Shown here: one piece after another, positions 1-47,000 of the stretch
Position numbering within the stretch: the first letter of the stretch is position 1
Layout of the letters: each line of letters begins with the position of its first letter
Origin: Cyanoderma ruficeps
Lineage: Eukaryota > Chordata > Aves > Passeriformes > Timaliidae
Reading direction: 5' to 3'
Length of the DNA stretch: 64,000 nt
Assembly (NCBI GenBank): GCA_008694505.1
Contig: VZDJ01000056.1
Span: 8,352,786 to 8,416,785, forward strand
Made by a program: the position numbers and the translations under genes
The notes under the pieces: model-generated
Told to the model about the DNA's origin: nothing
The model's database searches: none
The model's input: only the letters and a program-made list of their open reading frames with translations

Positions 1-5398
<5,398 letters not shown>

Positions 5399-21000: not shown

Positions 21001-22481
21001 TCACTTAGAGGTCGAAACAGATGCTTCTCTGCTTTCTTTACCAAATTGTCTCTAAGTCTTAAACCCTTAAAGTCTCTAAGCCCTTAAACTCCATAGCTGT
21101 TAAAGAAAACCAGTGAGGATTTAACATTTCCCAGAATTTTTTTTCTGGACTTTTCAAAAGCATTTTTGTGCACATTTTAATGCCCCATCTTACAGCTGTA
21201 TTTAACTCCATGTGCATTCATCTTTGGTGTGTGACCCTTCTAAGACACAGAATCCTTTGGAATATTATTTGGTGGAATCAGCTTTGGGTGCTGGATGGTA
21301 CAACCAGTACCCATTGCAACCTCTCTGCTGCATGAAAATCAGGGTGAATTTGGGGCTGAACATGGCCTTGTGGGTGCATATGTCAGCTGAGGGTTTTTCT
21401 GGGTGTTCTTGGGCCCTAGGTTCATCCTTCTATTGACTGAGGTCCAGCTGGTTTTTTGGGTCTGTCAAAGTCCTGCCCTACTGGCTGCAGCTCTGCCCCG
21501 GTGATGCTCGTGCACGGTCACTGCCAGAGCTGGTGAAGGTCCCTCTGACCTGGCTGAGAAAAGGGTTAGACTTGTGCCATTAAAATCTGAGTATGACAAA
21601 GACTGGAAAACTTCTGACATGAAAAAGAGATCTGTATTATGAATGGGGCTCCGTGTGCTCGTGAAAAGGAGTATCCTGTAATTAAAAGATAATTAACTGG
21701 AGAGATGTACTATCAGCAAAGAGCTGTATGTATCCCTGGGGGAAATTTTTGTCTCTGCTCAGCCTGAAGCAGCATTAGGTGACTTCTGCAGTTTGAGAGA
21801 TGTGACAGTTTATTTTTCCCACCTACCCATTTCATTTGTCTGCGACCACCTCTATAAACCCATCTGTCTCCCATGCCTCGGCGTGAGATTTTGCACACAC
21901 AGATTGCAGTTTCACAGGAGTGGAGAAAAAGAGCCCAAGCGAAGCCCACAGATGTCCCTGTGTAAGCTTTTCAGAAGTTTAAAGAGAATTCCTGTCTACA
22001 GAAATGGAGGCTGTTGATGAAATTCCCTCTGTAGCTCAGACCTGTGTCAAGGACCACTGCAACCGCCTGTGCTGCCATACTGAACGTGTTCCCAAGGACA
22101 TGTGAACAGGTTTATACATGTAGATCAGGTTGGATGGGGCTTGGAGCACCCTGCTCTAGTGGAAGGGGTCCCTGCCTATTGCAGGGGTTTGGATTAGATG
22201 ACCTTCAAAGGTTCCTTCCAGCCTGAACTATTCTGTAACTCTGTAATTCCGTCATTGCGGGTTGAAGCCACGGCGCCCAAGATGGTTTTTCCATCCCACC
22301 GAGAAGACTGCCCAGTTTGGCCGGCCAGAGCCACACAGGCTCCTTCCTATACTCACATTTTTGCCTCAGAGAGAGTGATCTCATCCTCGTCTTTGAAAAG
22401 GGCTTCTCCTTTCTTGACGCGGCACCACGTGCTCTTGACTCTCACCAGCTGGAAATCCGTCTGCCGCGGCTCCTGGGGCAT
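14949..22481 (-). CDS. EEVS: EEVS, 2-epi-5-epi-valiolone synthase (5 coding exons)
   Basis: Sugar-phosphate cyclase of the dehydroquinate synthase superfamily. It converts sedoheptulose 7-phosphate to 2-epi-5-epi-valiolone, the first gadusol step, using NAD and a divalent metal. Exons on the - strand are 22357-22481, 19485-20112, 17618-17851, 16258-16510 and 14949-15046, and all phases fit. They give 445 residues from the ATG at 22481, close to family length. Seen: the NAD loop GGGVCLDIAGLAAS (about 167-180), VPTTLLSYVDASVGAK, and metal ligands Glu in NGLGEILK (248), His in VDFGHLIS (321) and His in LMHGEAV (337). The C-terminus reads MPLPTGLGVADIFNDTSEET and ends PQA. Oddities: KNGVN replaces the usual KTGVN, a duplicated start region allows longer in-frame N-termini (ATG at 22613 or 22703), and a minisatellite abuts exon 4. 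Orientation is tail-to-tail with MITF and head-to-head with MT-Ox. Confidence 0.92.
15047..16257 (-). other. EEVS: EEVS intron 4
   Basis: GT-AG intron between exons 4 and 5. About half of it is an LTR inserted antisense to the gene. Confidence 0.85.
15594..16139 (+). mobile_element. solo LTR of an endogenous retrovirus
   Basis: The block begins TGTTGGAACCCTGG, contains AATTTAGGTGTCATTT, and has a polyadenylation signal AATAAA at 16084-16089 followed by CATCTGAGTCC. A diverged copy in the same orientation lies at 58049-58598, so this is a repeat family. No internal viral genes adjoin it, so it is a solo LTR. The 3' boundary is approximate. Family name not assigned. Confidence 0.75.
16258..16510 (-). 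CDS. EEVS: EEVS coding exon 4
   Basis: The exon begins RVLPSLMHGEAVNVDMAFM after acceptor CTGCAG (16511-16516) and ends PLPTGLGVA plus one base before donor GTACTG. It carries the third metal ligand, His in MHGEAV. The acceptor is the proximal unit of a tandem array that repeats acceptor-like sequence. Confidence 0.9.
16508..17000. repeat. minisatellite in EEVS intron 3, built from acceptor-like units
   Basis: Units on the + strand share CCCTCTG(C/T)(A/G)G, then AGGTGGGTGGCAGGAAAGG and TTTGGGGTGGCAAAT, joined by variable AAACAAATAGG runs. CCCTCTG occurs at 16508, 16614, 16703, 16814, 16881 and 16948, giving spacings of 106, 89, 111, 67 and 67 bp. The first occurrence is the real exon 4 acceptor. 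On the gene strand each unit therefore resembles the end of intron 3 plus the first bases of exon 4. Confidence 0.88.
16511..17617 (-). other. EEVS: EEVS intron 3
   Basis: GT-AG intron from exon 3 to exon 4. Its 3' half is the minisatellite; the rest (17001-17617) shows nothing recognised. Confidence 0.85.
17618..17851 (-). CDS. EEVS: EEVS coding exon 3
   Basis: Acceptor CCCCAG and donor GTGAGT frame 234 nt, exactly 78 codons in phase 0. It starts MALMKHKGLFDLLKNHGKYL and ends DFGHLISPELEM, including the second metal-ligand histidine. Confidence 0.93.
17852..19484 (-). other. EEVS: EEVS intron 2
   Basis: GT-AG intron. It contains a CR1 fragment close to its 5' end and a short (TA)n run near 19024-19035. 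Confidence 0.85.
19150..19450 (+). mobile_element. CR1 LINE 3' UTR fragment, sense on +
   Basis: Successive CR1 landmarks are GTGGTTTAAACTGAAAGA, GTGAGGAAGAAATTTGG, TGGATGGGGCTTTCAGCAAC and CCCCTTCCAACCCAAACCAT. It ends about 35 bp from the donor of EEVS exon 2, antisense to that gene. Confidence 0.75.
19485..20112 (-). CDS. EEVS: EEVS coding exon 2, NAD-binding core
   Basis: Acceptor CCAG precedes 20112 and donor GTAGGA follows 19485. The exon holds about 210 codons, opening GERISEGGISWIIEAPIYF and closing RRHISNGLGEILK. It carries the nucleotide-binding loop, the PTTLL motif and the first metal ligand (Glu). The exon is distinctly GC-rich and CpG-rich compared with its introns. Confidence 0.93.
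20113..22356 (-). other. EEVS: EEVS intron 1
   Basis: GT-AG intron. It contains a CR1 tail near 22118-22252 and is otherwise unremarkable. Confidence 0.8.
22118..22252 (+). mobile_element. CR1 LINE 3' tail, sense on +
   Basis: Contains CAGGTTGGATGGGGCTTGGA, TAGATGACCTTCAAAGG and the terminal TTCTGTAACTCTGTAATTC octamer-like repeats of a CR1 3' end. Confidence 0.75.
22357..22481 (-). CDS. EEVS: EEVS coding exon 1 (preferred start)
   Basis: The ATG at 22479-22481 sits in an ideal Kozak context (GCCACCATGC). The exon encodes MPQEPRQTDFQLVRVKSTWC, then RVKKGEALFKDEDEITL, and ends in phase 2 before donor GTGAGT (22351-22356). VKSTWC is typical of vertebrate EEVS N-termini. The frame is open further upstream to an ATG at 22703 through the duplicated leader, so an N-terminal extension of up to 74 residues is possible. 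Confidence 0.75.
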
Positions 22482-22732
22482 GGTGGCTCCTGGGACTGCT
22501 GGAGCACACGCTTCTTCTGTCACCAGCATGCTTGCAGAAGGTGAGATCTCCCTTTCCAGAGACCTCCCATCGCTGGGTGCCTTCGAGGTGCTTTTTAAAG
22601 GCTCCTGGGGCATGGTGGCTCCTGGGACTGCTGCAGCACACGCCTCTTCTGTCACCAGCGTGCTTGCAGAAGGTGAGATCTCCCTTTCCAGAGACCTCCC
22701 CATCACTGGGTTCCTTTGAGGTGCTTTTTAAA
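22468..22732 (-). repeat. EEVS: 132-bp tandem duplication covering the EEVS start region
   Basis: Copy A at 22468-22599 (132 bp) and copy B at 22600-22732 (133 bp) are nearly identical. A partial third start (GGCTCCAG) begins at 22733. Copy A equals 44 codons, so the EEVS frame stays open through it and the Kozak-ATG is duplicated in frame at 22613. Copy B carries one extra C (CCTCCCCATC against CCTCCCATC), which shifts the frame beyond an ATG at 22703. Confidence 0.92.
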
Positions 22733-25700
22733 GGCTCCAGGGTCACCCGGCATTGGGAGGGGAGGTCTGGTCTCCATGTGAGAGACTAATTACAAAATTG
22801 AGATTACCTAATCTGGGATGCACCTGAGGGGTGGCAGGAACGTTGGAAGACACGTGCCACTACCAGGATGGGGTTGTGTAATCAGCTGGTTTTATAAGGC
22901 TTAAGATGTACAATAGGAGGGCATACATTTACTTCCAACATGATGCCCTACAGCAAATTTAAAGTTATGAAAGGCAGTTTGTGTGATTCTTCGTATCATT
23001 CAGGAACCTCCTTTGCTGAGCAGAGCCTCTGATCTGGTTGCAGCTCTAAGCTGCTCTTATGGGGTGAGACAGGAGCAGAAGCATGGGGGATCAATATCAG
23101 CTGGTTAAACCTCTTTTGAGCTCACATTCCTGGGAGTCTCCTGAATTGAGGAACAAAAACTACATATATATTATATATTTCAGCTTTTATGATGGGTTTA
23201 AAAAAATTATCAGAGAGGATTTATCTCCTGAAGGGCTGTTTGGGGCATGAGCTGGGTTTTGATCCCCATATGACTGGGGATGCACTCTTCCATGGGATCT
23301 TCCAGCTGGGGCTTTTAGAGGGCCCCAGGCTCAGGTTGCCACATGAAGTATTCCCTTGGCATACAGCTCTGAGTGCTGAGCACAGGGAGACCTTCCTTTG
23401 ATTTCACCAGCAGTGCCTGAAGGCACAAACCTGTCTTTGCCACCTTCTCAGCCGTGTTTCTGAAAGCTGTCCTTGTTCAGAAACAAAGATCAATAAAACC
23501 AAAATCAGAGGTAAGAGCAGAGGCAGGAAAAAAATTGGTCTTAAAGAACCCCCTGGACAAACTGTGTCATTGCTTTGAAGGCTTAATTACAGCCAAACTC
23601 ACTTTGAAACCTTCATCTATCCCAAAATTAATATTGAGAACGAGTTGCAAGAAAAATCTCCAAAGCCATGTTGCCCTGCTCCAAGAAGCGCCTAACTCCT
23701 GACTCCAGTCCTCACTGCTGGCTTCATCTCCAGATGGCAAAGTGCTTTTTAATGATGACAGGCTGTTAACTCCATTTTGTAGAAGAAAATAGAGTCCCAG
23801 AAGTGAAACAACTGCCCAAAGTCACCTTAAAGCTAGTGTGTGTGGATCAGATGGCACACTAGAGCTTGTAGCTTGTTTACCAAATACTCACCCGAAATTT
23901 TAACTCCCAATCTAAATACAATTTTTATTGCTTTCTGCAGGAACTGCAATTCTATTGCAGCTTGTTGTTTACTAAATCATAAAATGGAATAATCTTAGGT
24001 ATACCAGGACGTCTGTTTTTTTCATCTTGTTTATTTGTTCTAATTAATAACAATACAGTCAGAACTGAGACTTCTTTTATTTGCTTTTCTTTTACTCTAT
24101 CATCGTGTGTGTTTACTGATTTTCTATTTATGCTTCTCTGTTCTATTCTAGGGACACTGAAGTATCTTCTACTACATTTGAGAAGCTGACAAATTAACTT
24201 TCCACAGTCCAGCTGCTTGCCAGCACCAATGACTTCCATGTCTCTGTACCTTCCATCCTGCAGAGGGGCTGCCAAGAGCCCTGTGTGAGCTCCCCCAGCC
24301 TGTGCACCTCCCCTGCCCAGCCCTGGGCTCTCTCTGCACACTTTGCAGGTACATTGAGTCAGTCCTGGAGTGAAAGAGCCCAGGGTGATACATCCCAGAG
24401 GTGACAGATGCTGTTCTGGTTATGGGGGAGTCCATATTTCCTCATTACCTTCAGTTTGTGTTTGATCTGAATGAAAAGGAGATGGCCAGCCCACCTTGGT
24501 TCCATCTCATCATGCTCTTTAAGGACTTTGCTTTAATTCCTCACCAGCCCTTTCTGCCCAATCCTGCTGCAGGCCACTTCAGGCTTTGGGATACTTTGGA
24601 TGTTCCCACTGCTAGCTCCTGATGCCTCCCTCAGCCAGTCCATTCCCGGGACCCTTTCCTGGGGCTCAGATCCACTGGTACCCCAGTGACACAACCTGCC
24701 CCAGCCTGTGCAGAGACCTGGTCCCCAGAGCAGGGGTCACTGCAATGTTTGGCTGAACGGGGCAGTGGTGACCTTGTGGCTGAGGACCACTTGTAGATAA
24801 TCTGGGCTTCAGAGTCCTGGGACGTTTCTGGCCCCATAGCTGGTGGTTCAGCTGGGGCATGTCTGTGATATGTAACTAGAAGGTTATGAAACTGCCAATC
24901 ACTTCCTTCAGAGCCAGCAGCTTCCCAAGGTCAGGATGTGAACTTACTCTTATGTAAAGCAAAGGCAAAGTCGGCTCTTTTGTTGTGCCTTTTTCATGTC
25001 AGATGCTGTTGGATCTCACCTGCTGCCTGTGCTCTGGGTGGGACAGGTGGGTGCAGCCCCAGCCCGGGGCCATCCTCCCCACACAGCCTCTCCCTGCTGA
25101 TTTTGGGAGGAGACTTTGTCCCCTCACCGGTCACCCAAGCACCGACCTCCTGCTCTGCAGAGGCAGCAAACCCACCACAGCATCCTCTGAGGCCAGGGAA
25201 TGAGAAGGAACATGCACAACCCTTCAGGTAAACTCCCTGTGTGGGGTGGGGAGCTCCAGGAGAGTGGTGTGACAGGCGGGGACACACAGTGTGATGTCCT
25301 AGTCCTGGGTGCCCACCTCCCCCATGGAGGCTCTGTGGCTTTGCAGCAAGGAGAAGAGGGTGGGGAGTGAGAGGAGAGAGGCTGAGCACAGGAGATGGAT
25401 TTGCAGGAATCTGGAGTGGAGGGAGTGGGACAATCCCAGGAGAAAGGAATGGTGGGGTGGCGGACTCCGGCAATGTCAAGAGAGCTTTGGCTGTGACTAA
25501 TTTCTGATGGATTGTGATGTTTGTTTTATAAATAATTTCTCTCCCTAATGGAGCACTGTGGACATTCAGCTTTTCAAGCAGTAGAACCTGTAGAAAATGC
25601 ATCAGCTAGTGTATATTTTCCTTGCTTTTCCCTGAAGTTCAGTCAGAGTTTAGATCCCCCAGAGTTTAGGTTCCTGCCATGAGCAGCAGTGTCCTCTCTC

Positions 25701-28869: not shown

Positions 28870-29029
28870 AAACTCTGGCTGGGGACATTGCCGAGAACCT
28901 TCTCAAAGCCAAAGAAATAGCCCTCAATGACTCTCGTGTACCTGAACAGCTCAGGAATTACTTACAAAAAGCTCTTGATGTTGCCCTTGGACTAGACCCT
29001 TACCTGGATGCAATGGCAACTTCCAAGAG
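28870..29029 (+). CDS. MT-Ox: MT-Ox exon, N-terminal helices of methyltransferase half
   Basis: Acceptor TTTCAG and donor GTACAG frame [20 protein letters not shown] and then [18 protein letters not shown]. It aligns to the fish MT-Ox segment LLKAKEIA...LQKALDIASGLDEYL. It begins with two bases of a split codon, so a short coding exon must precede it, and it ends in phase 2. Confidence 0.85.
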
Positions 29030-32000
29030 GTACAGATTCTCCTTTGTAAACTCGTGCTTTTGTCTGTGATTGGATGAATATGTTGTTAGATTTTCTGTCC
29101 AGAACATGCCAGAAACAGGGGGGACGGCAGCAGGAAGTGGAATGAGGCTTAAGTGCACCCAAATATTTAGGAAAGTGAGAATGGATGTGTGTGTGAGCCT
29201 ACAGCCCGGAGGAAAGGAGGTGAGGACAAAAAGCTTTAAATTTTTTGAAGATATTCTCCAAACTGATTGTTGGCTGTGGCAGTGTCTGAGCTGGAGCATA
29301 TCCTGGGGAACACCAACCTCCACACAGTCCTTGCTGGAAGGCTCGAAGAGTGAGCCCCTGGATCCAGCTGGTGCTGGGATAAATAAAAAGTGAGGGAAAC
29401 CCGCACCTCTGGATCCACCCTCTAATAACAGCCTTTATATGTGGCTTTTATCACCAACCACTCAACAAACATTAATTAATCTGCTAACTAAATTACTCTG
29501 GTAACTAAACTAATTAATTAAACTAATTTAAGGTATCATTAATTCAGAAGTCCAACTGATACCGTCATTATTCTTTTTTGAGCTGCACTGTATTACCCAG
29601 CCATGTGGGGTCTGCTAAACAATTCCTGTTTATCAATGCACATTCTGATATGTGGAAAAAGCCAGCACTGTCTAAAATTGACAATGTGTAAACTGTTCCA
29701 GGCTGTGGATTATGGGAACACTGAGCGTTCACTCTGTTGCTGAAATAATAGCTGATAGTTGTTTGACTTACACTTACTGTAGGATAATAGCTATACATTA
29801 TCTTATTAAAGTTGTTAAAGCATTTGTGAGGGGCAGAAAAGAGGTTATATGAAATGTTCTACTCTTTAAGTCTTGGATTATCTGACTGTGGCTGACACGG
29901 GTTATGAATTCTTTCTCATTTTACTGAGGAGTGGAGGGGGGGAGCTGGAGGAGAAAAACCCACTGAAATGGCTCTGAATTCTGGCCTGAAGAATGATCAC
30001 CATCCATTTCTGGTGGTTACTTTCTTCAGATAGGGTAATCTAACCTGTCTGGAGGCTATGGACTTCTTCCAGTCCTCTATTGCCTTCCCTGTGTAATAGG
30101 CAACATCTCCCTTCATCCAGAGACATTGTCACGGGCCTGACTTCTGTGAAATAGCATCTGGAGGCACCCTGCTTTTCTGAGCACTTTGTGGGGAAAAACA
30201 TTTTTTTTTCCTGTCTTGTAAAAAAAAAAATCTAGATTTTATATCTTTTCCCCTATTCTGCAAAGAAATCTCATTTTTGGCTGGAATGAGAATAATAATT
30301 GTAGAACTGAACAAAACCCGGCCAGGGTAACTGGAGTAATTAACTCCAAACCAGCAGACAGATAAACACCTGTCTGGGACCAGCTGAAAATGGGAAAGGT
30401 TTGGGGTTGAACAGTGGGGAATTCTTCCTTTTAGTCCCATGACCCCTTCTTCCCAAGTCCCTACGGCTGGGGTGGCTGCCAGCACTGAGATGTGCTTATT
30501 GCCAAACTAGGTTCTCTTAGGACTGGAATTTAGGATACTTGTGGTGCTTCTGGGCTAATTTTTCATTGTCATCCACAGATGGAGCTTTTCCAGGAGTTCC
30601 CTCTTGGTTGCTGCTTTTTGTGCTGGATGCTCAGATCTTGGTTGGATTCATAATATGGAAGTATCTTTTTTTTTTTTCCAGAAAAACATCACCTGAACAT
30701 ATCCCAGGAGATGCTGAAGGAGTTGACAGCAGAATCAGGCTGCAGGAAACATGTGCCCCTGGCTCTTTGAATGGCAAGTTGTCTAGCCAAGAGGGTAAAA
30801 TTGCACCAGTCTGGTGTAAAGGTTGTCGCTGAGGTTGAAGCTATCATCCTCTACTGTGTCTTGAGTAAGGGGAGCAATAGAAATGCTCAGAAAATGTGGG
30901 AAATTACTTATAAAGAAAGATATGAGCTTCCTGCGGGCTTTGATCTTCCTCTGGGACGAGTTTTCCTGTACCCTGCCTCCTGTGTCCTTGTATTCCCTCA
31001 CGTGCCCACACTCAAGTGCTTTAATCCACAGTGCCAGCCCCATCCCTCAGTGGACAGCAAAGAGGTCATCACCATTCCCGGAAGGAAAAGGGATGGAAAA
31101 ATGCTTCAGGTTTGGGTTTGGGATGTCTGATAGGGGTTTATGTGCTTTTTGTGGTGTAGGTGGCCAAGCACTGTACCTTTACAAGTAGCAATACCCAGGC
31201 TTGTATCCTCTTAGAAAGCCTATTACACCAAATCTATTCCCAGATTCATTCTTCCCAGATGTTCTCATCTTTGGAGCAATATATCATCCCAGCGAAGTAC
31301 TCTTATAATCTATTACACTAATACATTGTTCGAAGGACACCACTGATGATAAATTTCTTAAATGATGGTGCTGTCTGGGGATAATGACTCTAAGAGCAAA
31401 TGCAAGGTAATGTAGTGATTTTTTTTTTTTTTTTTTAATGCTGGATTCCAGAAAGAATATGGAGCCATCTCAAAGCCATTTTCATATGGGGGGAATGTTA
31501 AAATATGCAATATTTCAAGCACTATTTAACAAGCACTTGAACAATAGCAGCATTGATGATAAAGGTTCTACATTTAAAATCAGTCCTTTTATTCTGTTGT
31601 CTTTTAGCTGCATTTTAGATGAAATTTTGTCAGATTCTGTTGTTAAACCCTTATTTGAGAGTGTTTTAAGATTAGGGGTTTTTTAATGATCACTTAAAAG
31701 GCACATCTAATTTTCATCGTGAACAAAGCATAGTCTTTCTCATGGCTTTATTTTCAAGTTTTCGTTCTTGTCTTTCCACAGGCCAAATTTTTCGGATGTT
31801 TGTCCATATGATCAGAGCCAGGAAGATTTTATTTATTGGCAAGCTTAAAGGTTACAGTGTCCTTGCTGTTGCAGAGGCATTGCCAGAGGATGGCAAAATC
31901 TTTGCCTGTGCAGAAGCGTCATATCTCGGAGCAAACAGCCAGGAAAAATGGGATGATTCCTCAGATGGCAAAAAAATAAGCATGCGAGTGGGACCAGTGG

Positions 32001-35000
32001 CAGACACCTTGGAGGTAAAGTCAGCTGGAAGGAGAGTTTGGGAGTTCCTGTAAAGAGCACGTGGAAGAATCTCAGGCAGGTCCTATTTGCTGCCCACATG
32101 ATGCTGGATGGTGGCTCTGGTTTGCTTGCAAACGTGTGAACACACTCCTGCACCGAGGCTATTTCTTATTTCCAATGTATGGTGGGGCAGCTCTGTCACA
32201 TGAGACAGTTTTCCTCTCTTTTAACTAAAATCCTGCAGCTTTTTGATCAGAGGAATCACAGGCTCTCAGTGTAAGTCTGTAGGCTTCAATGGCAGTTTAA
32301 CTCAACATGGGTTGGCTTTGTTTTGGAGCCCTAATTCCAAATATAACAAACAGGAAGAGTGTATGTGTGTCCTGCTGAGCCAGTTTTGAGAAGGACAGCT
32401 TGCTTCCAGTGTTCAGAAGGGTTGAGAAACTCCTGGAGAAGTTTGTAATTCTGCCAAAACCTCTCACTGTTTTTCCCCACAGCAAACTCTCAGATGAATT
32501 AGACCCCACTTTCTCACTTTCAGAGATAAGCCTCAGACAAATAATGCCTTAGATGTACTTTTTTTCATTCTGACTGGTGACTTTGTCCCAAGAAAGAGAA
32601 ATCTTATGATTGCTGCAGCTCACATTTAATTCCAGTTTATGGATCTCCAGGACATTGCTGCGGTCCAGGATGAGACAGGTGGTGCCCATGCCAGGTTCAT
32701 GAAAAGGCCTTTCTATTATTAACACAAATAAATTTGATCTGATTTCATTTTCAATCAGGATGTGTCAGTGTGAGCTTGATTGTAACTTTATTTGCATTAG
32801 CAGGTACCATATTTATTTCTAAAATGAAATGGCCAGGAGCTTTCTGACCTCTGGTTTTCATGACCTGCGAGTTTGATAAGAAAGAAACAAAGAGCTTTGC
32901 TAGCATACGAAAAAACGAAATGTTACAGATCACCTGCAATGTGCAGCATTTAAAATCCCAGCTCCCCGCAGTGAGTGTGAAATTAATTGAATTGCTGTTG
33001 CTCTCTAGTGCCCATTCTGTGCAACTGACTTACTGTGACTGAATTAAAATATCTAGAGGCAGGCAGAGTACATGCTGTGTAGAGATTAAAGAAGGGAGCA
33101 AAGACATGAAAATTAAATCCTTAAAACAGAATGTTGCAATTGATTTTATATCCTCCCATTGCAACATAAAGGCACATCGTGACCCCAGTTCTGCAGGTGC
33201 TCAGAACTTCAAATACTTCTTAGAGGTGTTGGGAACAGAGATGCTCGTGTTTGGCAGGAGAGATCCCAGCATGGGGACACCTTTCTGTGCAGGATTTCTG
33301 CACTGGGCTCTGAACTTTTGCTATTCAGTGTGGCAGGCATTTTGTCCTCAGTATCAGGACAATCAGGATTGTCTTAGAGGTTTGTGATCCACAACACCTG
33401 TAAATGCTGAAGCAATGAATTTGGGGGCCTCTCTGGTGCGTTTGCATTTTGGGCTTCTTGAGGTTTGCCCAGGTGGAGTGTGGCAGCTGCATGGGATGCC
33501 TGGGGTGTGGAGGATGCTCAGCCCGTGGACAGCGTGCTGCCTTTTCCCTCCCAGATGAGCAGTGTAGGTTGGAGGCTGAGCAGGTTCCTTTGCTGCCTCG
33601 TGGGCAGCGGAAAGGCAGGAGAATGAGGCAGTCACAGGCAGGAGAGGGGTGAGGGATGGCACAGCAGGGCTCTCACAGCTCAGCTTCACAGAGGAAGTGG
33701 AGAACATTTCTGTCCCTCGTTGTCTAGAGCAGAGCTGGCTAACATTTGCTGAAGAGCACAGTGAGGTTTAGAAGAGCTGGAAAAAGCTCTGGTAAGGATT
33801 GTCCTGGTTGCCTACAGAGTCTGTAGCCCTAGGTGTGATTCTTGTCCCTTTGTAGAAATAAGGGGCAGAGATGGTCACTCACCAATTGCTCTTTGGAGCT
33901 GTCTGATGCAGCTTTGTTGCTTGGTGCTGGTGGCTGAATCTCACTTCTGAGTCCAGCAGGGCAATATTTCTGCTTATCTGCTGCTCCTCAAATTTTTGCA
34001 GTAATACAACTCCTGCAAGCAGGATTTGCCTCACTGCCCCAGCCCTGTCAAAGTGAGAAAATGTCATATGATCTATAGATTACCTACCTGTCAGGGAATT
34101 CCTTCTCTGCTGCATGAAGCTATGATTCAGCATGTCCAAACTGTCAGAAGAAGTATGATTTCTCCTTTCTGGTGTAAAACTAGTCCACCCAGGAGTTACA
34201 TCCCAGCCTCAGGTATCATCCAGGTGCTGCAGGATGTGTCCAGTGCTGCTTCTGCCCTTTACAAGGAAGCTGCCAGAGTTTGCAGCAGGAGACATAAGGA
34301 TGCAATACGTTTGTGCCAACGCACCTTGGACAGTGTGGCCATTGTGTCACCCCTGTGGCTTTGGCTCTTTCACCTAAATCCATGGCTCATCAGGGCTAGG
34401 AGTGAGCAGAGAGCAGTGCAAAGGCAGCACACCAGGCCATGGCAGCATCCTGATCAGGCTCTCTGCAGCATCTTGATTCTCCCTTGTGTTATCACACAGC
34501 ACTGGTGGGGTTGGCCTCTTTCCCTCCCTCCTGTCCCAGATCACAGCCAGCACAAAACATTCAGGATTTTTACCTGTCAAGGGATGCTAAGTATCAGAGA
34601 GGAGTCAGAGAGCTCAAATACATGGTAGGGTTCACTTGATACCTGAGGGTACAATGATAAAATTCCACCTTCCCCATGCATGAGGGACAGGCACTGCCAA
34701 GCTGAGTGAGGTCCCCACCAGGGCACAGAGCTCACACGGACCACAACACAACCCTCTGTGCCCAAGGGCCTCAGGAATTTCACTTAGTATTTTGAAATGT
34801 GGACTGAAGGGAAGACTTTCTTCAGGTTCAGTCTCAGGTACAGGTGTCTTCAGTGGGAATTAGCCACCCATTCTATGTGTCCTGAGTCAGTGTTTAAAAA
34901 CATTTCCCAACAAATCTTCCCTTAAGTCTGAGCTCTGTTGAGCCAGGCCTGGGTAATGCGCCTTGCCATGCATCTGCTGGCAGCAAGAGCCTGATCCTGC

Positions 35001-38000
35001 ACAAAGAGCTTCCTTCAATTCCCAGTGGACTTTTGATGAACAATGGATGCAGGATTGAGTCTGGAGGGAATGCAAACTATCAGGAAATTATTCCCATCCA
35101 TTATTTTGATCCTTCCATTTTAAAATTGAAAATGCAACACAAAAATAACACGGTGTTTGCAGCCGATTCTACTGATTGCAGGGCATTGTTGGAGGCATGT
35201 CAGGGTTTGCTTTCTTCTTTTTTTACTCCTGTTAGCAGACAGAATAGGTGAAGAGGTTGAGCTGCAGATCTCATTTCTCCTGTTTTGCTGCTTGTGAAGT
35301 CTGCCAACAGAATCCACCTTGACAAAGTCAAGGACTCTGCGTTTAATGTTGAACTGAGTGAATAAATTATGCATGAAATTGTGTCGGAGTCTCTAGTGTG
35401 CTCTAGAATTGCTCCTTTTGATATGAAAGGTTAATTCAGAAAGGAGTCCAAAATAGCTGGAAATTGTGGGGATAAGTGGATAGTATTCACTGTTGTGAGC
35501 TGTTATTACTAGAAATTGCATTCCCTCTCTGGCTTCCCTAGAGATTTCTCTTTGCCGGTGAATATAAACTGTACTCAATAGAATAGCGTTTAGGAGTAAC
35601 AAGAGTGTATGTCCACACACAGTAAAATATTCTAATGGTGTTTTAAAAGGAAACTGTACTTTTTCATGTATTCCGTGCACCCCAAGGATGGATTGCTATT
35701 ACATTTAGGTCAAGAACAAGGCACAGGAAAGGTAATAAGTTTTGAGTACATCTTTATTACAAATATGCTGACTGTATGATCCATATCAAAGGAACTGGGC
35801 AGTCATTTCTTTTTCTGATTGAGTTTGTATGTGCCTTATGAGAGTGTTGTCTCTGATCAGGGCTCCAATCAGGTTTTCTCTGAGCTTTGGCAGAAGATTC
35901 ATTCATGTTTTTATTTGGGACGTCCTCTCCCTGATTTTTTGCTGTATCCATCAGCAGTGCTGCTGTGCCCTTTCTCATGGTCACTTTTGGTGCTTCTCCT
36001 CAATGGAATGCAGTGTTACGCCTTTTTTTCTTTTTTTTAAATCCAAGAGGAAGTTAATGACTCACTGTAAGCAAAAGCATTAATTTTAGCCAAGTTGCTC
36101 TGAATTAAAACTCTTATTGCCATCTGTTACCACCGATGATGACTCTGTAGCAAGGAGCAGGGATTGCACTGTAAACACTCAGGAAATTAGTTTCAGCAGG
36201 ATATTTTGCAGGCAGATTATTTCCTTCTGGATCTCAGCTTTCCTCACAGTTGGAGGCATTTAGGCTCTGCTTCTCCAAGCAAAGGACGATGACATCTTCA
36301 GAGTGCTGTGAGATCCCAGGCAGGGCCTCACCCAGTCTCTGCTGGGAGGGTCAGGCTGGTCATACCCTCATTTTAAACCCTCTCATCCATACTGGGCAGC
36401 ATGGAGTTATCCTCTCCATCACTGTGCCCATCTTTCCTGTGCTTGGCTCTGCAGTTAGAGCAGATTTTTTTTCTTTCTGGCCATTTTTGTTCAGCAGTGG
36501 ATGCTGGCAGTGAGGAAATCCTCTCCAGTGTGGTGCCCTGGCCATGGTGACCACCTTCCTGGGTGACCCATGTTTTGATAGCCAAGGGACTCCAAGGAAC
36601 AGGGCACTTTCCTCTCCCTGTGGCTGTCACCCTGCTGTATAGAGGCTGCTCTAAAGGTAAGGCTGGTTCAAGGAATTTTGTGGATTCCTCTTACAGCCCT
36701 GGGGTTGTCTCTAGCTAAATACGGGAAACCCAGCAGCAATTATGAAGCTGTGGGAACAAGGAGCTCAAATGATGGCAGGTCCCAGGACAAACTCAGGCTA
36801 TTCTTTCCATGTGTCAGGCACTGGGTATCTGGATGCCCAGGTGACTTTTCTGGTTGGCCATTCAGGGCTCAGGGAAGTGGCAGAAGAGAAATGCCTTAGG
36901 AACCATGGCCTGGCACACCCAGGCAGTGCAAGGACAAGCCAGGTGTGCACTGGTTATACATCCAACCCAGGCACCCTCCTGGGATGGATGCTGTGGTGTT
37001 AAAAGGCGATTTATCTGTATCAGAAGACAGATAAGAAAGAGATAAGCTGTCAGCAGGTAGGCAGTACAGAAGGAGGGCTGAAATGAGAAGTCCAGCTAAT
37101 ATCCAGAGAGCTGCACAACTCCATATGGACCTAATGAAGTCAATGCATGAAAGTGAGATTCTTTTTCATTAGGGAGCCATCCCACCGAGCAGGAGTAACA
37201 TATGTTCAGCCACGGCCACATCTGTTTCTGAATGTCTGCCCCCCACCTCCTCCACCCAGGAAGGTTACAAGTCAGAAAGTAGTGATAAGTCATGATAATT
37301 ACTTGAATTGGCTTTGGCTCTTCTCCCTGAGGAATGAGACCTCTAATCTCCCTTTGTGATGGGCTCCTCTGCCCAGCTTTCATCTTCTGACCCTTCCTGA
37401 AGTATCTGCATTGGACAGACTGACTGAGGTGCAACCTGACATAAGATACTCTTCCACAGGAGCAAAAATGTTCCTGCTGCTCTTTACCAATGTGGCTCAA
37501 GAGGGAACCAGGGCAAGATTTTCTTGCTGGTCATGAAATGAAAAGATGAATCTCAGGAGTCCAGATGTTGCAGTTTCTGTCACATTTATAATAAACCAGA
37601 ATATATTTGGCCTTAAGGTCTTCTTTCGTTATGTATAATGTGTCCTAAATGTGGACTCGTGAATGCTTTCGGCAGAGTTTCTGCGTTATCAAGCATCCAA
37701 GGTTAAATGTGACTATCCAAGCTTAATTCCCTCACCCCTAACAAGCCCACAATGACCCCAGTTCACACAGCAGAGGAGTTCAGAGCTTCAGTGATCTGCT
37801 TGCCTCTATTTCCTTGTCTGATCCACACACACTCTGCCTCAGAAAGGCTCCTGAAGTCTCTCTTTGGGAGCCATTAACCTTACTCCCAAAACCAAACCAG
37901 TTTTTCACGTTCTGTTGCCATTGTTGATCCTTTTGTTGGTCTATCCCAAGGGGCGGCTCATCGCTCGTTGTGCACAATGTCTCTAAACACAAAAGGGAAA

Positions 38001-41000
38001 TCTGGACACAAGAAGTACCATTAAAAGTCGTGGTAGAGACAGTGAGTTCTGGAAAACAGAACTGTTTCCCTTTTCCCTTTAAATGCAAAGACTTGAAAGC
38101 ATTTCTGCTCGCCCAGATAGGTGGATGAGCTGTTGTTTCATTGCGACACACACAGATGCAGTTAAATAGTCCCAGATGGAATCTGAAATATTCCATAGCA
38201 GCCTCTTGGGCAGTGAGTGCATTAACTGCCACAGGAGAAGGCTCTAAAGGCTCCCATCTGGACATCCATCAACAATTTTATACATTATCATCAGCAGAGC
38301 CTGCTTGGAGGGAAGGTGTGCCACATTTCTGAAAATCCAATTAGATGATAGCAGCCAGTTCTCTTTTATCCTCTCTGTTGCTGAGCCATCCAAAGCATTT
38401 TTTTAGATTAAAGAAACATCATTTTCCTTCACAGGGGCTGCGCTGCTTTATCTCTATCATGACCTGTTCTTTCATGTGCTTTATAATTCTATTATTAATT
38501 GGGATTTCAACCCTTTTCCTGCTACTGAAGTGGGACACACTAGTCTGCAATTCCCAGATCTGCCTTATGCCTCCTTTTTATCCCCAGACTGATATAATTG
38601 CCACTCTTCAATTTGTTGATAGTTGGTCTTTTGAGAAGAGAGAACTTATTGCAGCACCTCGGTGGCAGGGTTTGATGCCAGCCTTACCCTGATGGACCAA
38701 TTTACTCCGACTCAAGGTGTGCAGGTGTTTCTGCTGTGACTCTCAATGCCATAAGCTGGGATGAGCCATCCTCCTTTATATCCTGATTTTCCTTGAGAAG
38801 TACAGAGTTCCATTGCTGAAGAATTGTTCGCAAAGCATGGAAAACTCCCAAGATCTCCAGAAGCAGTTAGAGCAGTGTTACCTTAAAAAAACCAAGTTTC
38901 TGTCTGGTTTGGAGTTTATATGAAGGACAAATTAATGGCAACATGTGAAACTTTCAGGTAAATAATTAGTGCTTTCTCCAATATATATTTTTTTTTTCCC
39001 AGGCATTACATGCTGAGGACGAGCACTTTGATATAGTCTTTATTGATGCTGATCAAAGGAATGCTGTTCAGTACTACAGCTTTGTCATGGATAACCACCT
39101 GCTGGGCATGGACGCAGTGATCTGTGTAGAGAATACACTCATGAAAGGACAAGTCTACCTGGAGAATGTATCAGATGAAAATGTACTAGCTGTCAGAAAA
39201 TTAAATTCGGTGATTAATTCAGATCCTCGTGTTGAGGAGGTTAGTGCAATGCCATTGGTTAAGGTGCCCGCAGTGCTGTATCTATGGATTTTGCAAAGTA
39301 CTCTTTAAAATGTTTCTTTTGTTGGTGCCATTATCCAAAGGACCTAAAATGAACTCAGATTTTATTATAATTCACCTCACTTGAGCTCTAGGTATGAGTT
39401 TCTATGTTCAGGAGTGGTCCCTACTCTGTCTACATCTTAGAGAGTGTTAAAGGCAAGATAAAAGGAGAGCTCTTAAGAGTGAATAATCAGCTCTACAGCA
39501 CAACTAAAGAATCACCACTCTGCTTTAAAGGCTCTGGGGGCTGTAGGGCATCACCAGCACAACAGGAGTCAGCAAAGAGAATAAAAAGAAGAAGTAACAG
39601 GGTGCACAAACAACCTGTTGTGATTTAAGAAACTGGAGAGACAAGGTTGCATTTTTTTCCCTGGCATTTGTGTAAGCAATGAGTTTGGAAGAGGAACGTG
39701 AGGAAATACAAATGGGTGGTATGTTTGTGTTGGAGGGAGCTTCAGCAAAAGAACAGAAATAGGGGAAAAACTGCAGTGGCCTGAGGATTATCCTTCATAT
39801 CAGTGGAACTTGGGTGAAGAAGGCCAGGTACAAAGCAGATGAGAACTGTGTTATATTTGCAGGTGATTTTGCCTGTGCAGAGTGGACTGAGCCTCATTCG
39901 AAGGAGTCCTGCGCCCCCAGATCCAGTGATTGAATCCAAGGTGGGTATTTCCTCTCTGTGAGCATTTCTGGGAAAATTTTGGCTCTGCAAAAGACAAGGA
40001 CAAAATAATTTTCAGGGGTTTGGTGGCAGGAACCCAAACATGTGGTACTGTGATCACGGATTTAGCGGCTTAGAGCTTGGCACCTTTTATCCTCAGTAGT
40101 CCAGGGTTGCACTAAAGCTGATTAATGCTGATTCCTTGCAAAGTCTTTCAGATCAGCTGGTCCTGTGATGAATCTCTGGAGTGACGGGTGTACTGTTCAC
40201 CAGGTGTCAGTGCCTGGTGCTTTCTCATACTTCCCATGTGGGAAGATGGAGCTGAGGACCAACTGTAATAAACCAATACAGCATTTCTGAAACAGTTCAT
40301 TTTTTTGCTCAGAAGCAGCACAGGATGCCTTCCTGTGCTCTCTGAGCTGGCTATTTTCCTGGCCTTACATTTTGCTTGTGCTAAGGAAAAAAACAATGTT
40401 TTTATCTTTCTGTTTTATGTAGTGGGCATCATCCAGCTGTAATGAAATTCCCATCTGGAATCATAATGGCCTACCTCAGTCAACCAGGACCCAAACATCC
40501 TGGTTGTTTTGCAGTTTCTGAGCACTCCCAAAGCTACGCCCACTGGTAATTCCTGGCATTTCAAACTCAATATTTTAAACATCTTGTATTTTGCATTTTG
40601 GTTCCAGCCAGGGGGAAATGATGTATGGCAGCTGATCAGACGACAGCTTGGTTTAAGTTATTGGCTGATATCTTTATTTGCGCACCAGCCTCGTGAAGAT
40701 ATTTTGATTGCACTCTACTTGACCCAAATCCTGCCTTTGGAACCTTGCTCTTAGCCTCTTAGCCGAGCCTGAGGGCAAGATTGGGCCCTGAGGATGAAAT
40801 AACTGGAAGACTTAATCAGTCAACTTCTAAGACTTCGTACCCAAGCCAGGCTAGGAAATGCCATACCCTACTCTCCTGAAAGTGGAATGGATTGTATTAT
40901 CTCCCTAAAGCACAGCCCATCTTCTCCATTGTCTGGCACCTTAGTGCCCTGTTTGAGATTAATGTCTGTATGGATAAAGGGGCTTTTTGGCTTGAATTAG

Positions 41001-44000
41001 TGATGTTTTTTGTATTAATTAATGGCCTAAGAAGACATGGATCCCTGCTCATGCTCCCACCTCGTTCTCACCAGCAGAGTGAATGCCGGTGAGAATGAGG
41101 TGGGAGCTGGACACCAGCTGTCCTTCCCAGCTGTCAGTGAGCTCTGCCCCTTGCTGAGCAATGCGTTTGTGTTCTTGTTTCAGGCAGAAGTGGTGAAGGA
41201 TGATGTTTTCTGGGGCTGCAGCCACCGCCGCATCCTGGAGCGGCTGCGTCTGGATGGCAGGGTGGCCTATGTCACAGGAGGGGGACAGGGAATTGGCAGG
41301 GCCTTTGCCCATGCCCTGGGGGAAGCTGGGGCTAAAGTGGCTGTGGTGGATCTGGTCCTTGCCAAGGCAGAAGCAGTGGCATGTGAACTCAGCCTCAAAG
41401 GTAAGCACTGAGCACGATGGGCACTGTAAGGGTGGCTTGCCTTCTCCAAACCTGGCACTACTCTGTAGTGCAATCCCCTCCCATCCAGCCCTGGTGGGGA
41501 ATTGGTTGGAGGAGAGGATTTTCATGCCATGGGCACAAAGCTTCTCCTGCCTTGTCAGTGTTGTCCCAGCAGTCAATGATACCACACCACCTGTGAGAGT
41601 TATTTATCAATACAAACTCTACTAGAGAAGCAAAGAGATCCAAACAAATCCCTCGCTGAAAATGTCCAAAGTGGTGAGCCATGGCTGGCAGGAACAGAGA
41701 AGGGTCACCTCACACAAGTGAGATCTATATAACCAGCACTTATATCCAGAGATGGTGCTGCTCAAAGTTTATCATGCAGCACCTCAGGCTTCACTATGGG
41801 TGAACAAAGATACAGCCTACAAAGTCACCTATCCCCTCTTCCAGACCTTTTGTCTGTGCCATGAGCCAAAACAACTAAACAGGGTAGTTGTATTGTCAGT
41901 CTGAATCTCTTGTTGTGCCCTAAAAGTTGAAGAGAAGTCATTTTTCAAGCCCTCTTTCAAACATGCATGCAAGGTCAGATATGGGAACCAAATACTAATA
42001 GACATAATAAGTAAAATCCCAAATAAGAGGTAAAATCCTCTACAAGCCACTTCTGTTTTAGCAGTAAAAACAGAAAATGTAACATAAAACTGAATTTCCC
42101 CCTAGAGCAGTACTAAACTGCAATTGTAAAGGGGAAAAAGAAAACTGGAAATATAATTTTAATGATAAAAGAAAGGAAGTATTACTCGTTTTATAATTCC
42201 TTCTGTGAGATTGCACCTGAGCTGTCTTCAAAGTTCAGTTCTTCGTTGTCTCAAAAGATGGACATTTAAGCAGGAAATTTTCACATTCCCATGTGAATAA
42301 AGTCACCAGTATTTATTTCCACTCTGACTTCTGCAAGGGATTGGCCATTAGAAATCATATTCTCCAGCAAAACCAGCCCCTGCAGATGTATTTATATCAC
42401 CAAGTCTCAAGAAGAGACAAGGAGAGATGTCATTCTGGTTTGGATACTCTCCTGAGGCTCCCCAGAGAACATTTAAAACAAAACATCCCTGTCTGCACAA
42501 TCCCAGCTCTGCTGTGCAGGAGACACTTCACACGGAGTGTCAGTGCAATGGTTAAAGCTCTGATCCCAAATAACGACCTGGAAGAAAAGTGGCCAGCCCC
42601 TATTACAAATTCTTGAGTCATCCAGTCCCTCCTCCCCTGAAGCTTTTCACTCTCTTATGCATCAGTGCCATATGGTTTTGGCACAAAGTAGCCGTGCCCT
42701 ACCCCTTAACTCTCCTTTCGGACATTTTTTCCCTGTGAGATCCTGCATATCAAGCAGAGCTATTCAGACAGAAATGGGCTACTTGATAGAGCCACGGGAC
42801 TTTGGATGCCAACAGCCCATTGGAAAATGAACTTAACTCATCTCCAGGGCATTTTCAGGAGGAGTTTGATCATCTACCCTTCAATGGCTGCCCTACATCT
42901 CTGCTCCTTCAGCAGTGGGCTGCCAGCCTGGAGGAGGTGGGGGGTTGTTCCAAAATGCAGTCGGAGAGGTCATGAGGCACAGCAAATATTATTGCAGTCT
43001 AAAGCAAAGAAAATCTCACTTCTCACTCTTTACACATCTTTATCCTTTGAGGTCAAATATTATCTATCAATTTGACCAGTGCAGCTGGTCAGGGCACATC
43101 TCTTCCATCTCATGATGGGTTTTGAGGTCTCGAATTTATTGTCGGTCTCTGTTGGAACAACCCCCAAACTTTGTAAAGCTTTTGTGAAAGGGAATTATAT
43201 CCAAATGCCCGTTTTTGGAAAGGATCTGAAAAGGTCAGGTTTTCAATCTTTTTCTCTCCAGAGGTAACTAGAGATTCTAGCCTGGACCTCAGAAGCTTTC
43301 CCTTGAAAACTTTTTTGTTGAAATCAATGTTTCCATGAAACATTTTGGCTTCAAAGAAGTATCATGCTCTGTTGGAAATAAATTTTGACAAAAAGGTTCA
43401 GCCAGCTTTACTCTCAAAATATTCACACGAGTAAATTGAAGCAATCATAACATTAATACGTATTTTTCCTGCTGTAATAAGGACAAAGGGTCTGTGATTT
43501 TTTTTCTCCTCTATGGCTGTAGATCTCTAACTCAAAGTTGGAGGCTCAGTGCCCCAAGTCGTTCCCATACTGATACTTATTCAAAACATTTTGCTTAGCT
43601 TGCTTAGAGCTGCTCTGCTTCTTGTATCAAGGAGCCCTTTCCTGCCTTTTGGGATGGTGCCATCATTTCATGATGAGTTTTAAACATCAGAACGCCTGTG
43701 ATCTCAGTTTTAGCTTTGTTAGACAGCTCGGGTGTATGTCCCTTGGCTGCAGGGCTCTTTGTTTTTAGATCCTGTGTGAATACCTTTTTCAACAGTTACT
43801 AATGGATCCTGACAGAAGAACCAAAAATGATGAAACATAACCAAAAAATCCTAAGGGTTACCTTCCACTACACACACCTCTGTCTTCAGGGGGAATCACT
43901 GCCTGTACCCTAAGGGAAGAATTCGTCTGATGGGATTTTTAAAATGTGCATTTTCACTGTAAACTATGCAAATGCCTCGTGCAATGTCACTCCTGATCTT

Positions 44001-47000
44001 CTTGTCTATATGCAACATGTTACTTCCATTTATACCGAGAGACCAGAGATGAAGCCTGTGGCAGGGGGACGTGTGCCTGTCCCTGCAGAAGGACACCTCA
44101 GGCATATCCAGCACAGTGATTGTCTCCAGCACAGAGCCCCTGGGCTCCTCTCCTGCCCCTCTCATCCCAAGCCGGCCTCCACCAGCCCCAGAAAACTGAG
44201 CTGAGGTCTGTGGAGATGCACTGGCCCCACCACGGACCCAACAGCACCATCCTGTGCTGGGTGTCTTGCCTCTGCTTGTGTCTTTAGATTTGAAGCTGTT
44301 TTTCCATAGTTTGTTTTATTAATTTTTTTTAACAGGTGGTTTAGGGGGGCAAACAGAGTGGGGAGACATACAGTGGTTTCCTCCCCTGTCTCAGAGTGCA
44401 GGGATATCGGCTGACTTGATTAAGGGCCAGTGTGGGACTCTGGTTTGAAGTGAGCGTGGCTTCGCTGCTTCTTCACTAGACACTCACACGTGGCACCTTT
44501 TGTCTCATTTTTATAAACTGACCTATAAGATGAAGCTCTAAATGGGGTGAGAGTTGGAGGGCAGGTGAAGAGTCTTTCTGTTACCATTAGTAACACGCTT
44601 GCACCCATTTTGTCTGTAAATTGAAAGATTGCAGTAACTCCCTGCGTGCTACATGTCTTGATAACAATTAGGAGGAGCAACAGGGGCCGTCTGGCTGTTC
44701 TTATTCTTTCAGCATATTTAGCATAAAACCTGTGATAAGATAAGAGGTCTTGTTTTGTGGCAGAGCATGCAATTTTTCAGTTGTCTGTATGTTTCCTCTG
44801 CCATGGAAATCATGGTGTCATCACCGAAGGGGACAGGAGCTCCCCCACCCCAGCACTCCAAAGCAGCATCACCTCGGGCTGTGCACTCTGAACGGTTCCT
44901 GAAGGCACTGGAGATGAAGAGTTTTTCCACGCAAAAGCCTCTTTCCTGCCATTTTCTTCACGTGCACCACTGGGCAATTCCTGCTTTGCCTTGCTTTCCT
45001 GGGAGCCTCCGTCTCAGCTTCATTTTGGAAGAGTCTCCTCCTGCATTAGGCTTATCCCTTCTTTTCAATGTTTCATCAGAATGATCAAAAAGAGGGACCA
45101 ATGTGGAACAAATCTGTCATTTATATAGAAGAAAAATACCTTGCTTTAATAGGTGCAACTTCCTACCCAGACTGCTGATCATGGTCCAACCCCAGTAGCT
45201 GCCTCCCTCCTTCCTTAATTAAGACCCATTTCACCACAGCCCTTACTGGTGTAGCCTTGTTTGGCTTTGAGGATGGGTATAATCCCACTGGCATCAGGTG
45301 CCTCAGCAGGCTTCTCATGTTGTTTAAAAATAAGGGTATTTAAAACTGATTTTTATAATAAATCAAATGAAGTTGTTTAGAGATCAGCGCTGGTGCAAAA
45401 GTCAACAGCTGGATTATTTTAGGAGAAAAAGTGAAACTGCTACAGGTTTCAAATTTGGTAAATCTCTTCACTTCCAAATGTTTGCATTCTGGCAGGGTGA
45501 TTTTCAGTAAATAAGGCACTATGACTGCCATACCTGTGCTCCTGCAGGTATTCATTCCCACTTGATTCCACCTAAAACTCGTTTGGTTTCGTCTGAGGCT
45601 CCCAGCACTCTGGATGCTTTAGTTCATCTGGGGAGCAGCTCGGGACAATTTAGTTCGATTTCTGTAGCACCTTAGGCGGGGGACCTGGCACAGGAAAATG
45701 ATCCGTGGAGCTGCCGGGAGCCGGGGAAGCTGCAGTTGAGGGTTTGGACAGAAGATGGTGCAGTGTTCCAAGCTTCGTCCTGCCCGAGCCGCAGCCTCGG
45801 CTCCCGCACCTGGGCTCCAGGTCGGCCTCCAGCAAGCAAACCTGGCACCGGTCAGCAACTTTATAATGGTATTGCAGTAACAAACACGCGTTTTGCTACT
45901 ATTTGTGGAGCAATGAATTAAAGTGGAAAAAAATAATATATATATATATATGTATAAAATACAGCCATATATAAAATCTCTATATATATGAATTAATATA
46001 TATATATATATAGTTTTTTTTCCCCTGTGAATTCCTGTGCTGACTCCATCATTTTCATTTCAATGCAGGCATTAAAAGCCTTGCTCTGGCAGCAGATGTA
46101 AGCAAGCCTGAGGATGTGCAAGGGATGGTGGATGCAATTGTGGCTCGCTGGGGCACAGTCCACATCGCATGCAACAATGCAGGAATCAATCTGAACTCTG
46201 CGAGTGAAGAGACTTCCCTGGAGGAATGGGACAAAACTTTTGATGTTAATTTGCGAGGACTATTTTTGTGCTGCCAAGTAAGTGTGAAATACTGCACTGG
46301 CTAGTTTTGCAAATGGGTATTAATGTTTTTAAATGTTTGCTTTATTTCAAGATACAATAACATTTTCTTTATAATTATCACAATAATATTGGTCCTAGTT
46401 TTGGTGGAGTTTAGGAGACATTCGCTTTATATCAATTACAGATTTTGGTCAATACAAAGCAGCTGGTACTTGTTGGCTACCCAAGCCCAGGCATTAAAGA
46501 ATGGCCAAAATTTTTTTGAAGGGTGGTTATTTGAAAACCAGAAGGTTTGGAGGGGAGAATTCCCAACATTAGTGATATTCTTGAAAAAATACTGCCAACA
46601 GTGGAGAGGTGTGAAATGGCAATGGGATTTTTTTCCTGCATCAGCCATTTTTATACCAAGTTTTTATATCAGGTGCTTAAAAAAAATGTGTTAGCACATC
46701 AACTCTTCTGAAAAGACTAATTTATTATCATGTCATTATTAGCACAATCACAGAAAGGGTCACTGGTCTTTCCTTTAATTTCTGTCACAGGCTGCAGGCC
46801 GCATTATGCTGAATCAAGGATATGGGAAGATAATTAACACAGCATCTATGGCAAGTTTAATAGGTGAGCGATGAGAGCTAACAGTTGTGCTTCAGAATCC
46901 ATATTTTAATTACTACCGATGCTATTTGAATCAATTAAACCTGTATTGGGAAGGAGTAAATCACTGACATTTCATATTAGAGGAAATGTACTACAAAATT

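Follow-up and report, generated by a model that had tools for sequence, protein, structure and literature searches.

The 64,000 nucleotides analysed here (the window: Cyanoderma ruficeps, contig VZDJ01000056.1, positions 8,352,786 to 8,416,785 of the forward strand) carry on their + strand a gene for MT-Ox, a protein in which a methyltransferase (MT) half is fused to an oxidoreductase half of the SDR family. By using tblastn with bird MT-Ox proteins, together with splice sites, the gene was resolved into 11 exons, between 25212 and 58935, encoding 549 amino acids. As judged from protein alignments that include birds, turtles, lizards and frogs, both acidic residues that bind S-adenosylmethionine (SAM), the catalytic Lys and one metal-ligand Asp have disappeared from the MT half in these animals. 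The exons are listed below; exons 4 to 11 were defined on the spliced open reading frame (ORF), and P numbers denote database proteins.

25212..25227, + strand: exon 1, MHNPS with the start codon (N-termini MHNPSE/MHNPAE of P0008 and P0006; GT donor)
28870..29029, + strand: exon 2, N-terminal helices (tblastn of bird MT-Ox, GT-AG)
30682..30794, + strand: exon 3, variable linker preceding the MT domain (tblastn, GT-AG)
31782..32014, + strand: exon 4, motif I and the ribose-acid site ACAEAS
39003..39239, + strand: exon 5, motifs FIDADQRN and VICVENTL
39863..39940, + strand: exon 6, end of the MT domain and linker
41184..41400, + strand: exon 7, start of the SDR domain with TGGGQGIG
46069..46277, + strand: exon 8, SDR NNAG and catalytic Asn (here DVNLRG)
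46791..46863, + strand: exon 9, SDR catalytic Ser (TASMAS)
52009..52126, + strand: exon 10, SDR YNASK
58740..58935, + strand: exon 11, SDR C-terminus and stop; the end given lies one base beyond the stop codon

All of the introns (10/10) are of the GT-AG type, and the spliced ORF is uninterrupted, its single stop being the terminal one; this intact 11-exon ORF rules out a pseudogene or a frame error in this bird. Exon 1 contributes five residues only, in a region where birds vary, and the songbird model P0001 starts elsewhere, with an N-terminus matching 27180-27257. Among the best 120 matches listed, the closest to the window protein are songbird proteins, with 91% identity. An N-terminal Methyltransf_3 domain is followed in the window protein by a C-terminal SDR chain, as in its relatives; PF01596 and PF13561/PF00106 both score above cut-off in P0006, P0001, P0315 and P0119. 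The last intron contains two N bases, at 55638-55639, which end a poly-T run.

The residues relevant to methyl transfer were located by alignment and on the spliced ORF, and are given with their counterparts in catechol O-methyltransferase (COMT) and in zebrafish MT-Ox.

31832..31834, + strand: Phe114 (TTT), for COMT Glu64 / zebrafish Glu117
31910..31912, + strand: Ala140 (GCA), for COMT Glu90 / zebrafish Glu143
39054..39056, + strand: Gln192 (CAA), for COMT Lys144 / zebrafish Lys195
39129..39131, + strand: Glu217 (GAG), for the metal ligand COMT Asp169 / zebrafish Asp220
39045..39047, + strand: Asp189, retained (COMT Asp141)
39132..39134, + strand: Asn218, retained (COMT Asn170)

In COMT, Glu64 and Glu90 contact SAM, Lys144 acts as the base, and Asp141, Asp169 and Asn170 bind the metal. 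On these assignments, the SAM-binding acids and the catalytic Lys are absent from the window protein, and the metal triad Asp-Asp-Asn is incomplete. An earlier note, made from the letters of this DNA, had placed Phe, Ala and Gln at the first three of these codons, and the spliced gene returns exactly the same positions; the fourth change, Asp169 to Glu at 39129-39131, had been overlooked. The COMT equivalences proposed in that note are borne out by phmmer alignments against PDB. Residues 95-227 of the zebrafish MT half align to COMT 42-176 (1h1d), and the offset, with a 2-residue gap ahead of Asp141, pairs COMT E64/E90/D141/K144/D169/N170 with zebrafish E117/E143/D192/K195/D220/N221. When a bird MT half was aligned directly with solved O-methyltransferases, identical columns were obtained; since these independent alignments agree, misalignment is ruled out as the source of the changed residues. 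Among the phmmer matches listed, 7/7 distinct solved family members have acidic residues at the Glu64 and Glu90 positions, along with DADK and DN. The absence of indels relative to fish also holds, as 173/173 zebrafish positions from 98 to 270 align with the window protein, gap-free on both sides, and the glycine motif, Ser and YNASK of the SDR half are present, as had been claimed.

In order to establish how widely these residues are replaced, two protein searches for MT-Ox, each listing the best 120 of thousands of matches, were combined into 222 proteins, which were aligned with the window protein. The resulting 223 sequences comprise 112 fish, 85 bird (window included), 10 turtle, 10 lizard and 6 frog proteins; they are counted as proteins, not species, some species being present twice. 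Groups were assigned from organism names, and nameless entries were treated as fish, except for P0317, whose resemblance to the Rhinoderma sequence placed it among the frogs.

The Glu64 column contains Glu in 111/111 ray-finned fish and in 0/107 tetrapods, its replacements being Leu (80) and Phe (1) in birds, Leu or Phe in turtles, Ala, Ile or Val in lizards, and Gln, Ser, Tyr or His in frogs. Glu is likewise found in the Glu90 column of 111/111 fish versus 0/111 tetrapods (mostly Ala), Lys in the Lys144 column of 111/111 versus 1/110, and Asp in the Asp169 column of 112/112 versus 1/109. All four residues occur together in every fish with data at each site (111/111) and in no tetrapod (0/105); none of the four is kept in 103 of these 105 tetrapods, and one is kept in the other 2. 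As for the metal ligands, Asp141 is present in 108/110 tetrapods and Asn170 in 109/109, and Asp169 is replaced in 108/109. P0091, whose gene model looks mis-spliced, accounts for the atypical bird residues in the Asp141 and Lys144 columns. Because the same columns are altered across the tetrapods and intact across the fish examined, the changes are not due to chance, and their spread over birds, turtles, lizards and frogs makes the loss an old one. A loss specific to birds is ruled out by the same changes in other tetrapods, and a loss confined to sauropsids was ruled out once frog proteins were added. Phe at the Glu64 column is unique to the window sequence among birds (81 proteins with data), so that, at the four replaced sites, a Leu to Phe step in a column no longer acidic is all that sets this bird apart from other birds.

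In some groups the MT half has decayed further. The Tyr of motif I is replaced by Pro in 9/10 lizard proteins, motif I is largely gone in frogs, and the two Anolis proteins (P0099, P0110) have Arg at the Asp169 metal-ligand position. Amphibians are represented by frogs only. The matches arrive in clusters showing few names, and some entries are nameless; no crocodilian, snake, tuatara, salamander, caecilian, lungfish or shark name occurs among the MT-Ox matches listed, which does not show absence. The comparison with other birds, turtles and fish proposed in the earlier note finds the residues lost in birds and turtles and intact in fish; for its crocodilian part, no crocodilian name occurs among the matches listed. 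Crocodilian names are missing from the best 120 matches for both MT-Ox and EEVS, the gene next to MT-Ox, and turtles, which are farther from birds, are present; in crocodilians both genes may be lost, badly annotated or hidden in clusters.

The SDR half shows a different picture. Its glycines, Asn, Ser, Tyr and Lys are identical in all listed fish, frogs, turtles and lizards; in birds, among the 82 proteins with data, Tyr is kept in 79 and Lys in 78, and the few exceptions resemble gene-model errors. EEVS is similarly preserved: the bird protein aligns to ValA (4P53) with E = 6e-95, and eight chosen active-site positions are invariant, gaps aside, in 120/120 proteins listed (76 fish, 21 frog, 6 lizard, 2 turtle, 15 bird). 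Animal EEVS are reported to match ValA at 14 fingerprint sites (PMC4426668; this and the other papers are cited for the parts of their text that were available).

The ability of the altered MT half to adopt the family fold was evaluated by using Pfam profiles and AlphaFold models. Methyltransf_3 scores are 185.8 for zebrafish, 120.8 and 127.8 for two birds and 67.9 for Xenopus, with a cut-off of 22. In the models of a bird (P0006) and a Xenopus (P0315) protein, the MT half is an alternating alpha/beta domain, in which 14/17 and 13/17 ten-residue blocks, respectively, reach a predicted local distance difference test score (pLDDT) of at least 70. The bird model retrieves SDR structures at the top of the Foldseek ranking, the O-methyltransferase 3r3h at rank 11 (TMt 0.72, root-mean-square deviation 3.7 A) and SAM-bound SafC (5log) at rank 49. 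The models thus indicate that the class I Rossmann fold is retained by the MT half, the alignments behind them (61 and 49 chosen sequences) including fish rows, which favour the fish fold.

The tempo of change was compared between the two halves by using protein rate ratios, in place of the branch-specific ratios of nonsynonymous to synonymous substitutions (dN/dS) suggested in the earlier note. Branch lengths were estimated independently for the MT half (zebrafish 98-270) and the SDR half (299-551) on a fixed tree of 73 of the 223 sequences (198 well covered, then thinned): 24 fish, 30 bird, 8 turtle, 5 lizard and 6 frog. A second run excluded four birds (P0048, P0063, P0067, P0073), which have the longest SDR end branches and are suspected to be bad gene models. 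In this run, the MT/SDR branch-length ratio is 7.32 on the branch to tetrapods versus 1.62 within fish. It is 7.38 on the frog stem and 8.28 within frogs, 9.39 and 2.97 for the lizard stem and lizards, 0.58 and 2.26 for the turtle stem and turtles, and 4.44 and 1.37 for the bird stem and birds. Mean pairwise differences give MT/SDR ratios of 1.86 (1.37-2.83) in fish, 6.77 (5.01-10.18) in frogs, 3.14 (2.24-4.73) in lizards, 2.79 (1.79-4.17) in turtles and 1.71 (1.16-2.72) in birds. With the four suspect birds included, the bird values are 0.84 by branch length and 1.31 by p-distance, instead of 1.37 and 1.71. These ratios suggest that change in the MT half accelerated around the loss, that its decay continued in frogs and lizards, and that in birds it is held about as tightly as in fish, relative to the SDR half.

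Within the bird MT half, block 216-270 is the least variable (0.073, versus 0.132 for 98-160), and the order is reversed in fish (0.219 versus 0.146). In the segment at 39126-39200 of the window, 21/25 positions are occupied by one residue in at least 95% of birds, versus 13/25 in fish. If the avian MT domain has acquired a new role, this segment is a candidate for its location; part of the conservation reflects age, since birds are the younger group.

In fish, MT-Ox is the second enzyme of the gadusol pathway. The zebrafish protein converts 2-epi-5-epi-valiolone (EEV), in the presence of SAM and NAD+, to gadusol (m/z 203), and the reaction is proposed to start with oxidation at C-2 or C-3 and, after enolisation, to end with methylation at C-2 (PMC4426668). 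Where tetrapods keep MT-Ox, it is quite likely, on the residues described, an oxidoreductase fused to a dead methyltransferase, i.e. an ancient pseudo-methyltransferase domain. EEVS would still produce EEV, and the SDR half would oxidise it by using NAD+; the product released, unmethylated at the C-2 oxygen, would be an enediol (C7H10O6, m/z 189.04) instead of gadusol. Such an enediol would be a reductone, chemically ascorbate-like. The MT domain may have been retained because the SDR half or an oligomer needs a folded part, or because it has taken on a new binding function in birds. A single loss of the residues, on the tetrapod stem, is favoured over separate losses in frogs and in amniotes, two groups with different replacements. 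Since the MT residues are lost and the oxidising half is kept, the tetrapods examined probably make a compound other than gadusol, the sunscreen with which they are credited. A more tentative extension, which we consider possible but would not presume, is that living egg-laying tetrapods make no gadusol and that their EEVS and MT-Ox together produce an unmethylated cyclohexenone enediol, which would be an endogenous antioxidant similar to ascorbate, the former MT domain having been recruited in birds as a conserved non-catalytic module. The earlier note had proposed oxidation without methylation for this bird; as a functional reading it is plausible and the best available, but its scope was too narrow, as 103 of the 105 tetrapods keep none of the four residues.

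The predicted product conflicts with the published inference, drawn from gene presence, of a gadusol pathway in amphibians, reptiles and birds (PMC4426668), a claim restated for birds and reptiles in a 2021 review (PMC8222398); an owl genome paper includes MT-Ox among the UV-protection genes sought (PMC5629816). In the open-access literature searched, as far as its text was available, no description of the loss was found, nor any measurement of gadusol or its unmethylated form in a tetrapod. Birds with proven gadusol and the same residues had been named in the earlier note as grounds for rejecting its proposal; other birds do carry equivalent losses, and the literature listings, to the extent of their available text, contained no measured bird gadusol. 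If the methylating site died long ago wherever tetrapods retain the gene, crediting them with gadusol by gene presence fails, an unknown metabolite would be conserved in birds, reptiles and frogs, and MT-Ox would illustrate clearly how, in a fused enzyme, one half can lose its function and the other persist over a very long period.

Tetrapod MT-Ox shares with the gadusol-forming zebrafish enzyme (zgc:113054; Osborn et al. 2015, PMC4426668) its domain order, its linkage to EEVS and MITF, its SDR catalytic residues and the MT family match, and differs from it in lacking equivalents of Glu117, Glu143, Lys195 and Asp220. Similarly, the bird and frog MT halves score above cut-off and have a predicted fold similar to that of the class I metal-dependent O-methyltransferases (Methyltransf_3: COMT, CCoAOMT, SafC), from which they differ in the replacement of the SAM acids, the catalytic Lys and one metal Asp. 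Pseudoenzymes (PMC10211241) and the trypanosome AdoMetDC prozyme (PMC6221367) likewise have the fold of their family, lack its catalytic motif and are tied to an active enzyme; the tetrapod domain differs from these in being fused to an active enzyme of another family, within a vertebrate secondary-metabolite pathway. Of the pseudoenzyme traits, the family fold (in the models) and the motif loss are present, and the MT/SDR ratio, from protein rates only, is fish-like in birds.

Several observations weigh against a simple dead domain. Mean pLDDT is modest, 64 for the bird and 66 for the Xenopus model, whose SDR halves are poor. The frog P0284 (Rhinophrynus dorsalis) has Lys in the Lys144 column and the tern P0075 (Phaetusa simplex) has Asp at Asp169, the other sites being lost in both. 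In the tree used for the rate test, tetrapods attach next to sturgeon, so that some of the change assigned to the tetrapod stem may belong to fish. When the two halves were tested over the whole tree for separate rate patterns, the outcome was mixed, unlinked branch lengths gaining 166.6 log-likelihood units for 134 parameters, with the Akaike information criterion favouring unlinked (by 65) and the Bayesian information criterion linked lengths (by 478). The second Glu of the fish ELEP motif is still present in 9/10 turtles, and a Glu lies one residue past the Glu90 site in 85/85 bird proteins. Of motif I, bird MT halves also retain Gly and in most cases Tyr, and they keep Asp141 and Asn170, so that some form of pocket may remain. 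Finally, the fish-like relative rate of the bird MT half is not what a plain dead domain predicts, and an added role is needed. The displaced Glu, the retained pocket residues and the fish-like ratio would also fit an MT half that still methylates, through migrated or substitute residues in an altered pocket. This we regard as improbable, since four functional positions, the general base among them, are altered together and are kept in the seven solved family members listed, and motif I is mostly lost in frogs and its Tyr in lizards.

The main rival to the reading of an unmethylated product is that the enediol made by tetrapod MT-Ox is methylated in trans, by COMT or a COMTD1-like enzyme, gadusol still being formed. 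The genome of this bird (1.03 Gb, 481 contigs; a single genome, the counts being lower bounds) contains at least 7 exon matches to PF01596, in three places: MT-Ox, a COMTD1-like gene and a COMT-like gene. In the COMTD1-like gene (contig C85, 9143378-9147042; matches L003, L006, L007, L009), VIEVG, VFTGYNALSM, ACDIND, DADKEN and AIDNV are intact, and one exon has as its best PDB match 2avd, which we take to be human COMTD1. The COMT-like exon, on contig C124, contains ALELGTYCGYS and TVEFNP, and its best PDB matches are COMT chains. Both genes therefore keep, in the exons seen, the acids lost from MT-Ox, the exon with the COMT Lys not being among them. Ascorbate, another enediol reductone, is stated to be O-methylated by COMT (PMC11322087), which makes methylation in trans a real rival. 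Still, COMT would have to accept the EEV-derived enediol, no report of tetrapod gadusol was found in the literature text searched, and we consider this route unlikely. That a second fish-type MT-Ox or MT gene, located elsewhere in tetrapod genomes, makes gadusol is scarcely credible: nothing was found in its favour, the window MT half matches only its own two exons, and neither this query nor the PF01596 profile detected a second fish-type MT-Ox in this genome, a fish MT half not having been searched. A slow decay of the gene pair to non-functionality in tetrapods would agree with the strong divergence of frog MT halves and with the reported lack of the genes in mammals, puffers and coelacanth (PMC4426668). 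It is nevertheless very improbable, as residues of both the SDR half and EEVS are preserved in all four tetrapod groups, and the MT-Ox gene in the window has no stop, frameshift or broken splice site.

The EEVS gene lies beside MT-Ox on the - strand, at 14952-22529, in five blocks which jointly cover residues 1-463 of a songbird EEVS. The block limits are tblastn bounds (query: bird EEVS P0121), not exons defined by splice sites.

22356..22529, - strand: first coding block (90% identity)
19482..20111, - strand: large block with GGGVCLD, KNKLG and GLGEILK (96% identity)
17618..17854, - strand: block with PNLWE and DFGH (96% identity)
16259..16510, - strand: block with MHGEAVNVD (93% identity)
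14952..15047, - strand: last block, DIFNDTSEETLERAYELW (100% identity)

MITF-like 3' exons are also found in the window, on the + strand. The ORF at 4973-5398 matches PF11851, presumably the MITF/TFE C-terminus, with 147 bits, and the ORF at 2633-2926 (+) gives an HLH match of 19 bits, just below the cut-off. These exons adjoin EEVS and MT-Ox in the same gene order as published for fish. An EEVS intron contains, at 16506-17008, a tandem array with overlapping periods of 67, 89, 111 and 200 bases and an 11-base subunit.

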